From assembly GCA_905250025.1 (NCBI GenBank), contig CAJNOJ010000038.1:186001-250000 (forward strand): a stretch of DNA of 64,000 bases, given 5' to 3'. Position 1 is the stretch's first letter, and every line of letters begins with the position of its first letter. The position numbers and the translations under genes are program-made. The notes beneath the pieces were generated by a model, which was given only the letters and a program-made list of their open reading frames with translations, was not told where the DNA came from and searched no databases. Origin of the DNA: Adineta ricciae (lineage: Eukaryota; Rotifera; Eurotatoria; Adinetida; Adinetidae). Below are positions 3,570-21,613 of this stretch, piece by piece.

Positions 3570-6496
3570 ATGGACCTTCGAGTGTATGTTGATGGTGTTG
3601 CGCGTATCATCTGTGATTTGACTCCAACAACTACGGTTCATGATATTATTATTGCATTAGCTCAATATAAGGGAAAAGCTGGACGATACTCTTTAATCGA
3701 ACGTGCACCTGATGGAGCACAGCGAACATTATCACCACATGAATTAACTCACGAACTCATTCATCATCCCGATTGGACTTATATTCTCCGACAAAATCCA
3801 GACTTGTCACAAAAACAAAAGCGTTCGAAAAGCTTAGATGGACGAAAAACACCCATCCAACAACAGTCAACTGTAGAAAGTATGTTCATGTTTCGTTGCT
3901 TTTTATTGTTTTACAAGTCGAGATAGAGCACACTTAAGCATATACACAACCTTGACCAGTAATTTGATTCAGTGAGGCACCATATTTTTGAAGCATATCA
4001 AGCAGATATAATTTGCATTGATACATCATTTTCTTCTCCTCTTCTTCTTTTTTTATATTTTAATCTTGAGTGTACACATGTCATGTCATAAAAATTTTCT
4101 TAAGAGACAAGATGGCTACTCCAAGTGTTTGTATTGCACCTTTTCTTTTCTATTCAAGTCTCTCCATTATCCATCTACTCCTTTCGGTCTAATGCGTTAT
4201 TTTCACGTAAAAGTTCAAAGCAGCACCATTATTATGATCTATTGATACTCCTTTGTCGAGCGAAGTAGTAGTACCACGTACACACTATGTAATCATACAT
4301 ATACTTATGTAGATCACTTAGCATCAGACAACAAACAGTACAAAGTATCCTTTCATTGCGATTGAACAACATACGTAAATATATAATACCGACAAGAAAA
4401 AAGAGAGAATAAGAAAGACGAATGAAGTTAATATCAAGCACTTCTATTCTAATCGGCTTGTCGTTTGCATGTTCGTTAAAAAAGATTAGTATACTCCATA
4501 GGATCGATTGATGAACGGCTGTTGTCACCATCTGTTTGTCTATCTGTCAACTTTAAATAATAAACATGACGCAATATACGTGACATATATCAGAGTATTG
4601 GAACTGGAGATGATCAATCTTGTCTTAACCAAGCTTAGAGCAATCGAGAGGTCAAATTTCCAAAAATACTCTGAATAAATTTCATAACTCCGTTTTTCTT
4701 TTGTCGTCATTGATGACAGAGAAAAGTCACTGACTAGTATTTAACTACAACTATGTACACAATCTACCTTGACACATATTTTAACATGTACAGCCGGCAA
4801 TCGTTCATACATACACATACATGTATGTGTATATGTCCAATGTAAAGTTCATCGTTGTGCATGTGAAACAAAAATAAAAGAGTACTAGCCATCGTACCGA
4901 GAAAGTTAATGATGTAGGATAAGGCAAATAAACAATCATAAAGAAGAAGAGAACGATGGGTTCGAAAGGAATTTTCTTAAGTTTTGCTTTTCGAACAATA
5001 CTAATCATCGGTCATATTTCAGTACCTTCAGCTGTTACCTCGTCGTCATCATCATCTTCGACATCTGGTCATTTTCGAACAGTATATAATAACAATAATG
5101 GTTCGGCTACATTATCATCATCGTCATCATCAATAAAATCTTCGGAAAAAAAGAAACGCTCACATTTACGTCATATCTTTCCATCAGAGAATATCAATAA
5201 CAACAATAATAATCATTTAAACAGTAGTGATAGTTCGCCGCCAGTGTCATTTTTCATCGAAAAGAAACGTTCGTCACGTACACCAGTTCAAATAATTGAA
5301 CAAGACTTAGGTACGTTAGATAATCAGCATGCAACTCGCCGTTCACGACCTAAATCTGCCTTATCATCATCATCTGGAAATGAATCGAGCGCATTCCGTA
5401 TTGTTCATCATAATCCGAATAACAATGCTGCACATTTACAACAACAGCAACAACAGTATATTGCTCTATTGAAAATGCTCAAATCGCAAGAAATTCAAGT
5501 GGAGCAACAACAGAAAGAACTAAATGAAAAACAAAAAGGTTTCTGGAATGAGCGAATCATTGATTTCCTATTCGTTTAACTTTGTTTTTTTTCTTCAGAA
5601 ATCGCCCATCGAGAACAAGACATCCATCTGATCGATCATGACAGTCAGTTAACTACAGACTGTCCAGTCTATTCGGAAGAATATTCGAAGAATGAATTAG
5701 ACAAAGAATTCGACTATGAAAGAAAGCTACATTCTAATTACGAACATCTGCAAGATCAAATAACACGCTGTTCAACAACAATCGAACAAAAACGACAATT
5801 ACAAGAACAAATTCAATCAAATATCGAACAAATACATAATGATGTAGAACAAATACAAAAGACGATTCTCCACGAGAAAAAGGTTTCGAACTCATAGATT
5901 CTTCAATTATTCATTTCAATTTCCTCTTAGGATCTTAATCAATATCAACACGATCTTGAGCGATGCACTACTTCGTTAACTCAACAAGAAGATTTAGTAC
6001 ATGTATTAACCCAACATAATGACGAAATCGAACGAATTATACAAGAACGTCGACAGCAAATCAATAACCTCGAAAATGAACTAATTAAATTAGATGATAT
6101 GCTCATCAACAGTAAGTTGATCGAATCTAACATATTCTTCTCTGTGTTACAACATATTCTTGTTGAATTCTAGCGTAAATCTAAAAAGAAAATTTTAGCT
6201 GAGGTTTGCTTTCCGCTTCCCAAACTTTCGCATGTCATATTCATTCACATCTAAGACTGAATTCAATCCTGATCATTCTCATTCGTCGGCTTTTTTTCTT
6301 TTTCAAAGGTTTTCTTCATCCTTCATACAATTTGCATTCGAATCTCTCCGCTCCACAACAGTACAATTCACTTCCATCAACAACTTCACCATTATCGTTA
6401 TCAACAGGTACAACAACAGACGTTCTCATGCCTGTTCGTTTGCAATTTGTGAATAGTACGCTTTGGAAATTGTGTCCAAGTGGAATCTGGGTGTAG
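3570..6496 (+). CDS. RASSF8: N-terminal RASSF protein (RASSF7/8 type)
   Basis: Five exons: 3570-3879, 5023-5538, 5599-5882, 5931-6111, 6309-6496; phases close, giving 492 residues. The N-terminal Ras-association domain begins MDLRVYVDGVARIICDL and continues with VHDIIIALAQYKGKAGRYSL, very close to RASSF7/8. A Ser/Asn/Gln-rich linker follows, then about 150 residues of coiled coil (IEQKRQLQEQIQSNIEQ) and a short tail. Family role: junction-associated scaffolds linked to growth control and mitosis. Intron 1 is unusually long for this window (1143 bp). Introns 2 and 3 use GTTTC donors. The last intron (6112-6308) could hide a micro-exon near 6200, so the final junction is the least certain. Confidence 0.85.
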
Positions 6497-19868: not shown

Positions 19869-20763
19869 ATGGCGTCAAGTTCGTGTTCTAACCCAACCTT
19901 TATCAATCGGTAATTACATTGACTTCAATTTTTCATCTAAGTCTTGCTTCTAGACTTCGACGCGAGTGTCTCGATCTCCAGCAAAATCCAGTGCCATTCA
20001 CTTGGTCTCTATCAGAGAACTTTACTTTATTCATTTGCATAGTACTTTTTTTCTGCTTAGTGCTGGTCCAACAGCTGACAGTCTGAAGCAATGGTTGGTT
20101 GTGTTCGAAGGACCGCCTGATTCACTCTATGAAGGTGGCACTTTCTTTGCTTTCCTTACATTTGATGATGATTATCCATTCACACCACCTACAGTGAGTT
20201 TGGAATTTCGAGTATCTTCTTGTTTTGATCGTTTCAATTTGATTTTAGTTGGAATTCAAAACCAGAATATATCATTGTAATATTTATCAAAGTACGGGAT
20301 TAGTGAAACATGATATATTCGACAAAAACTGGTCGCCAACAGTAACCATTCGACAAATTATTCAAAAAGTTGCCAATCTGCTCGTTCAGTGTGAACCAGG
20401 TGAGTAGAACTTCAGCATTGGATCACTTTTTCCTCGGTACGATCGGGATCAAAGTACCTTTCCTACCTAAAAATAGAATTTCGAGCGAATCTGCTCCATT
20501 GTTCGTCGTGCTATGAATATTCAAACTTTCATCTTCATAAAATAATACATTAAGCGTTCTTCCACAAAGTCATCGCGTGATATCTCACGAGAGAAAAGAA
20601 ACAAAATTATTCTTCCTATTCGTACTGCGAAGCTTCAACAAATGTATTCTATTCATTTTTTTTAGATTATTGTGCTATGAAAGAACTTGGTTTACAGTAC
20701 AAACACGAACGTGTTGATTACGATCGAATGGCTCGTCTATGGACGAAAAGCTTTGCTCGTTAA
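19869..20763 (+). CDS. E2 ubiquitin-conjugating-fold protein lacking the catalytic Cys
   Basis: Five exons: 19869-19909, 19954-20004, 20061-20193, 20249-20399, 20666-20763; 157 residues, the size of a minimal UBC domain. The fold is clearly UBE2D-like: LRRECLDLQQNPVPF, then AGPTADSLKQW, FEGPPDSLYEGGTFF, DYPFTPPT, a WSPTVTIRQII helix region and the C-terminal ARLWTKSFAR. At the active site, family members read HPNI...GSICLDIL; here it is HCNIYQSTGLVKHDIF. The catalytic Cys position is Lys, the HPN proline is Cys, the HPN Asn is kept, and one residue is inserted. Ordinary thioester chemistry looks impossible, so a UEV-like adaptor role is inferred. Intron 2 has a weak GTCTCT donor, chosen because it restores the conserved CAGP junction. 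Confidence 0.85.
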
Positions 20764-20842: not shown

Positions 20843-21613
20843 ATGCCATTGTCTATTTATGACAGTGAACAATATCTATTCGAAATCGCTCAAAGTTTCA
20901 TTCGTTCACGGGTCGTATTCACTTCATTAGAACTTCAAATCTTCGATTTATTCTCGCAATCTAATCATGGTTTGACTTGTGCACAAGTAGCTGAACAATT
21001 GAGCTTACATTACGTCCAAAACGAATCCCGATGTTTACAAGACGTATTAGATTGTCTAAAATCGATGAAATTCCTGGAATATGAAAAAGAGAAGTTCACT
21101 TATAAACTAACTGACTTTGCACGAAATCTTCTTCTTCCTAATCGACAACTTCTATCAAACATTGATCGAGATTTCTACGATAAAATGCCTCAATTGAACG
21201 AACTTGTTTTGAATAATTCCATCAAAGATTCAATTCATTTGATAATGCTATTACGAATCAAACAATTGGTTGACTTAACAGCTTATTCGAATGTTTCGAT
21301 CGATTCCTTCGATGAAAACGTCGATGTCATGGTCATCTGGAGACAAGACGGTTGTCTCAAAGAAAAGATCAAACAAGCGTACGATATATTACCATCCAGT
21401 AAGGCAAGTCTTCTGATATTAATCATCCCCAATGACGAAGATGATGAAGTCACACTCGCATTGAACATCCTCTTGAACATGACAACAACGAGCAAAGAAG
21501 CAGAAAATCCCAAAGAATTCTATTCGACGAAATTTTTCAAAAAAATCGGTTTTCAATCTATTGAACGATTGAAATCAACAGATGGAATACAACTTCTACT
21601 TGCTTATAAGTAA
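20843..21613 (+). CDS. Degenerate ASMT-like O-methyltransferase
   Basis: One uninterrupted exon of 256 residues. The N-terminal winged-helix dimerisation region is recognisable (IAQSFIRSRVVFTSLELQIFDLF, LTDFARNLLL), and the C-terminal end follows the acetylserotonin O-methyltransferase pattern (VMVIWRQDG, LLILIIPNDEDDE, KKIGFQSIE). The central Rossmann part with the Gly-rich SAM loop (DLGGGSG in active relatives) is missing, and the protein is about 90 residues shorter than ASMT. It is therefore probably not an active methyltransferase. An AATAAA is at 21746-21751. It lies 80 nt downstream of the E2-like gene, so co-transcription is likely. Confidence 0.7.
   Translation: MPLSIYDSEQYLFEIAQSFIRSRVVFTSLELQIFDLFSQSNHGLTCAQVAEQLSLHYVQNESRCLQDVLDCLKSMKFLEYEKEKFTYKLTDFARNLLLPNRQLLSNIDRDFYDKMPQLNELVLNNSIKDSIHLIMLLRIKQLVDLTAYSNVSIDSFDENVDVMVIWRQDGCLKEKIKQAYDILPSSKASLLILIIPNDEDDEVTLALNILLNMTTTSKEAENPKEFYSTKFFKKIGFQSIERLKSTDGIQLLLAYK

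Follow-up and report, generated by a model that had tools for sequence, protein, structure and literature searches.

The stretch of DNA analysed here (the window, 64,000 nucleotides of Adineta ricciae contig CAJNOJ010000038.1, to which all positions given without a contig name refer) carries an E2 gene at 19869-20763 on the forward strand. The gene model comprises five exons forming a single open frame of 157 amino acids with a stop codon, separated by four introns of 44, 56, 55 and 266 bases, all with GT-AG borders. Exon 1 (19869..19909) encodes MASSSCSNPTFIN plus two bases, while exon 2 (19954..20004), as aligned to UBE2E and UBE2D, encodes the N-terminal helix. Exon 3 (20061..20193) covers the beta sheet up to YPFTPPT, including the P61-F62 pair (UBE2D numbering), which is kept. 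Exon 4 (20249..20399) is the active-site exon, in which HCNI and GLVKHDIF, separated by an insertion of one residue, are followed by WSPTVTI and the crossover helix. Exon 5 (20666..20763) encodes the C-terminal helices and ends with a TAA stop. Two of the introns, one preceding LEFKTRIYH and the other at the CEP-DYC junction, correspond roughly in position to interruptions in UBE2D genes of the same genome. As the gene is multi-exon, an origin as a retrocopy is ruled out.

The sole Pfam domain of the protein is UQ_con (PF00179), which matches residues 14-151 with 123 bits (cut-off 27) over positions 1-139 of the 140 of the profile, i.e. the full length of the E2 (UBC) fold. The full-length alignment to solved E2s obtained in the PDB search (E = 7e-40) excludes a chance match. 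Eighty bases past the E2 stop, an ORF on the same strand (20843-21613) carries only the O-methyltransferase dimerisation domain PF08100, and no methyltransferase domain was found in it by Pfam at E 0.001.

The active-site stretch of the protein reads HCNIYQSTGLVKHDIF, as a preliminary description of this DNA had given it, and one additional residue separates HCNI from the Gly. Lys95, encoded by AAA at 20306..20308 (forward strand), aligns with the catalytic Cys, and this AAA differs from the TGY codons of Cys at all three bases. The central claim of that description, a Lys at the catalytic Cys position of an E2 fold, is confirmed by the full-length alignment and by a second haplotype with the identical codon, so that neither haplotype has the Cys of an active E2. 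The HPN Asn (N77 in UBE2D numbering) has indeed survived. The motif had also been placed on the junction of exons 3 and 4, where different splicing might have restored a Cys; it sits entirely within exon 4, and alternative splicing giving back a Cys is therefore ruled out. As for the Cys said to have newly appeared at the HPN proline, the UBE2E alignments printed from the PDB search already read HCN, which is the normal motif of this family. Since UBE2E enzymes are natively HCN, the supposedly new Cys of the query is inherited, and a displaced catalytic Cys with unusual chemistry, as had been suggested, is not supported.

A second copy of the gene was found in the assembly (130 Mb, 1033 contigs) on contig C14 (L042, G000:C14:553001-562000), the gene of the window being on C38. 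The C14 copy is colinear with the window across 9 kb at ~94% identity and is, on these grounds, most likely the other haplotype. For homologous gene copies of Adineta ricciae, a median divergence of 4.55% is given in an excerpt of the literature, which describes divergence of this order in bdelloid rotifers (PMC5916493). The C14 gene is intact, with its splice sites kept and the same AAA codon for Lys. Between the coding sequences of the two copies there are 13 nucleotide differences, spread over 12 codons; three of the 13 lie in the two codons that change the amino acid (P49A and F62L). The last difference is in codon 125, in exon 4, and exon 5 is the same at 98 of 98 bases.

Between the two haplotypes, dN is 0.0054 and dS 0.116 (NG86), hence a dN/dS of about 0.05. 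Under neutrality, 73-78% of the changes should be non-synonymous, and the observed differences reject this (p between 3e-5 and 3e-4, according to how transitions are weighted), a test that covers only the time since the two haplotypes separated. The same Lys in both haplotypes, together with mostly synonymous differences, is compatible neither with a sequencing error nor with a pseudogene evolving without constraint. It had been anticipated that a nearly identical intact allele would expose the gene as a decaying pseudogene; such an allele does exist but, because it carries the same Lys, it argues for function. On the C14 haplotype, a unit of about 230 bases comprising exon 5 with its flanks is present twice in tandem (about 3900-4420 of the reverse complement of L042). 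The two exon-5 copies are identical, and the units meet beside an N; the duplication is possibly an assembly join.

Concerning ancestry, the preliminary description had the protein matching UBE2D along its length and saw in it a new UEV-like lineage from the UBE2D group. The resemblance to E2s holds, as does a Cys-less E2 intact in both haplotypes, but UBE2D is neither the closest relative nor the favoured source. Among the best 60 of 293 PDB matches, the nearest relatives are UBE2E1/2/3 (10 distinct sequences, 129-140 bits), followed by UBE2D at 123.5 bits or less, and these best matches do not place the query in the UBE2V/MMS2 or TSG101 UEV families. The top four UBE2D1 chains (5tut, 4ap4, 5fer and 7zj3), which we take to be C85K forms of UBE2D1, outscore the remaining UBE2D1 chains among the matches listed by a few bits. 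In a tree of 23 chosen E2 rows, with groups named following the PDB search, the query joins UBE2E with a support of 97/94, its own branch being long, at 1.87 changes per site. The log-likelihood falls by 12.8 units when the query is constrained to group with UBE2D (AU p 0.024) and by 12.2 when it is kept outside UBE2D/E (AU p 0.018); a UBE2D origin is disfavoured by both the tree and the AU test.

Other indications of descent are less clear-cut. Residues informative between the two families number 12 for UBE2E, 7 for UBE2D and 33 for neither, which is not significant alone (p 0.18), and 11 vs. 7 when the first residue of the construct is left out (p 0.24). As in the UBE2E family, the HPN motif of the query reads HCN and the loop after it contains a Cys; HCN is not exclusive to UBE2E, being also present in a large E2-domain ORF on C368, and so is no proof of UBE2E descent by itself. 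The identity to UBE2E2 is 43% (63/146), and the UBE2E family has the catalytic Cys that the query lacks. The N-terminal extension before the UBC domain is also missing from the present gene model, in which an upstream exon may have been overlooked: 8 residues precede the matched stretch in the query vs. 53 in the 201-amino-acid human UBE2E2 chain. As a whole, these sequence comparisons suggest that the query apparently derived from within UBE2E.

The loss of conserved residues was then located along the protein. A column was counted as conserved if 75% or more of 26 other E2s kept it (UBE2D2, UBE2E2 and 24 sequences from this genome), which gave 48 columns, rows L052, L060, L061, L062 and L101 having been dropped before the count. 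The query departs at 15 of the 48, namely 10/17 in UBE2D positions 84-119, a region picked once the alignment had been seen, and 5/31 elsewhere (Fisher p 0.0037). When the two Cys columns typical of UBE2E are set aside, the departures are 9/16 and 4/30, respectively (p 0.0046). Similarly, among positions identical in UBE2E2 and UBE2D2, 21/33 are lost in 79-119 vs. 22/61 elsewhere (p 0.0165). Losses of conserved residues cluster around the active site and donor-ubiquitin groove, and most of the other conserved positions remain (26/31 outside 84-119).

In UBE2D numbering, the lost residues include C85K, L86H, L104Q, S105K, S108N, D112Q, N114E, D117Y and L119A, and the kept ones include P61, F62, H75, N77, D87, W93, S94 and P95. 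Positions 104-108 and 119 presumably touch the donor ubiquitin and positions 114 and 117 presumably serve catalysis, while 61, 62 and 94-96 are taken here to meet RING domains. K4N, K8R, K63T and A96T are also changed; as we take these four to be RING/E1 contact residues, binding to RING domains is uncertain. Closed ubiquitin is described, in the part of the source consulted, as resting on the E2 crossover helix (PMC9675693).

When human UBE2E2 was searched against the assembly, 54 matches were obtained, of which not every weaker one was read. The best full-length matches (46-53%) are intronless ORFs, and the best exon-level matches (72-78%; C268, C9 and C23) are all HPN and UBE2D-like. Among the matches read, no canonical UBE2E was recognised elsewhere in the assembly, although a gene missing from an assembly need not be missing from the genome. 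On C170, C367 and C314, full-length E2 ORFs that lack introns and retain Cys and HPN lie next to one another in groups; one representative of each forms a single clade with C103, C540 and C280 (99/98). E2 domains are also present in two very long ORFs (L094 on C368, 979 amino acids, and L030 on C99, 1111 amino acids), with HCN or HVN for HPN and the catalytic Cys kept. Scans for relatives of exon 4 gave 67 pattern matches in genome contigs and 14 in viral contigs, none of which was confirmed.

A census of active sites was made by HMM readout for 59 hit clusters plus that of the window, out of 92, the other 32 being partly covered. It yielded 56 distinct active-site strings from 164 matched stretches: 51 with Cys, two with Gly, two with Lys and one with Thr. 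The two Lys strings are those of the present gene and of a fragment (L076) for which the alignment is weak there. A UBE2D-type stretch on C23 (L072) reads GTIGLDIL, with Gly for Cys, while the matching stretch on C9 (L102, 91% DNA identity) reads GTICIDIL. A UBE2D-like ORF (L070, C22:20181-20444) has Gly and a diverged E2-like ORF (L052, C136:143111-143521) has Thr at the aligned Cys position. Loss of the Cys recurs among the E2s of this genome, and the C38/C14 gene is the one case with the same replacement demonstrated on both haplotypes, C22 and C136 lying outside the haplotype comparison.

The interpretation that we favour, with a probability of about 0.6, is that of a maintained UBE2E-derived pseudo-E2, catalytically dead and acting non-catalytically in the manner of UEVs. 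Like that class, the query has an E2 fold without catalytic Cys under selection, and fold positions mostly kept, an active site and donor groove largely lost and purifying selection make up the pattern of a pseudo-enzyme. In this view, the UBE2E-derived fold has lost both the catalytic Cys and a large part of the donor-ubiquitin surface, and the protein would no longer form an E2-ubiquitin thioester. It may instead use the fold that remains, in which the Pro-Phe and Ser-Pro residues of the RING contact are kept, to occupy or scaffold a complex of a ubiquitin ligase or an E2, and may in this way compete with or tune active UBE2D/UBE2E-type enzymes. This is a well-supported case within one genome, and the gene probably encodes a conserved non-catalytic helper protein rather than being a broken gene.

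Several other explanations were weighed against this pseudo-E2. A decaying duplicate, non-functional and with a frame open by chance, would fit the long branch and the many changed residues, and the E2 with Gly on C23 but not on its haplotype-like copy on C9 shows that Cys loss without fixation does occur in this genome. With both haplotypes intact, splice sites kept, a dN/dS of about 0.05 and losses unevenly spread over conserved sites, we nevertheless hold such decay to be unlikely. An artefact of sequencing, assembly or gene modelling is hardly credible: the duplicated exon 5 beside an N on C14 does mean that the assembly is imperfect at that locus, but Lys and Cys are three base changes apart, and the Lys is found mid-exon in two separately assembled haplotypes. 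Only slightly more credit can be given to a protein that is still an enzyme and accepts ubiquitin on another Cys, such as that of HCN. The query has several cysteines, one of which (Cys85, in HCN) is close to the active site; yet this Cys and that of the following loop are ordinary UBE2E residues, present there alongside the catalytic Cys, and further residues of the catalytic loop are lost.

The Lys itself might have a role, the protein being a natural decoy: E1 would charge the active-site Lys once, and the permanent isopeptide-linked E2-Ub would bind RING ligases tightly and block them, like engineered C85K E2s in vitro. The PDB contains UBE2D2 chains in which this residue is Lys (4v3l, 6hpr, 3zni, 5zbu and 5mnj), the same swap being used for stable E2-Ub, and the query has kept the HPN Asn and D87. 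A decoy would, however, be expected to keep L104, S105, S108 and L119, which presumably hold the donor ubiquitin closed, and these are changed here (L104Q, S105K, S108N and L119A), as are D117 and N114. In excerpts of two studies, the affinity of RNF38 is about 40 times higher for C85K-Ub than for free E2 (PMC12326332), but charging of a C85K E2 took 24 h at pH 10 (PMC9675693). On balance, a decoy is rather improbable. The same low standing is given to a convergent animal counterpart of plant COP10, that is, a Cys-less E2 variant held by DET1-DDB1-DDA1, which animal UBE2E binds via its backside. The position of the query with UBE2E in the tree and the lack of a recognised canonical UBE2E among the assembly matches read would agree with it. 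So would partial texts in which human DET1 pulled down UBE2E1-3 but not UBE2D3 (PMC12808801) and COP10 is described as a UEV (PMC7215765) that complexes with DET1 and DDB1 (PMC4661828). Against this, of the four alignable DET1 contacts of UBE2E2 (T201 lies beyond the aligned construct and was left out of the count), R126 is kept, as it also is in UBE2D2, R124K is conservative, and T68Q and R88L are changed. A search for DDA1 gave no match, and its control was equally silent. A bolder proposal, in which the only UBE2E-class enzyme of the lineage is now a fixed, conserved pseudo-E2 whose Lys would accept ubiquitin, as a natural C85K E2-Ub trap controlling RING/DET1-type ligases, strikes us as more improbable still than the decoy or the COP10 counterpart, if less so than a surviving enzyme.

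With respect to known systems, engineered C85K UBE2D shares with the query the Cys-to-Lys replacement, the exact exchange by which E2-ubiquitin is locked for biochemical work. It is man-made, and unlike the query, it keeps the original catalytic and crossover-helix residues nearby over the 59 residues aligned. Titles and abstract openings of the open-licence literature yielded no paper on a naturally occurring E2 with such a Lys. COP10 is related to the UBC4/5 group, and its origin is apparently different from that of the query (UBE2E). According to the portions of two sources consulted, Cys-less E2 variants are a recognised class, in which UEV1/MMS2 and TSG101 are E2-like and lack the catalytic Cys, as the query does; UEV1/MMS2 partners Ubc13, and TSG101/Vps23 routes ubiquitinated cargo (PMC3001443, PMC7215765). 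AKTIP is a further E2-like protein of this sort. These proteins are not the nearest relatives of the query, no UEV being named in the best 60 of 293 PDB matches. Part of the second source also presents plant COP10, E2-like and without catalytic Cys as the query is, as a UEV (PMC7215765). What is new here is a member apparently derived from UBE2E and carrying a Lys; if conserved, it would offer a direct test of whether animal UBE2E has a non-catalytic role able to outlive catalysis, as with COP10 in plants.
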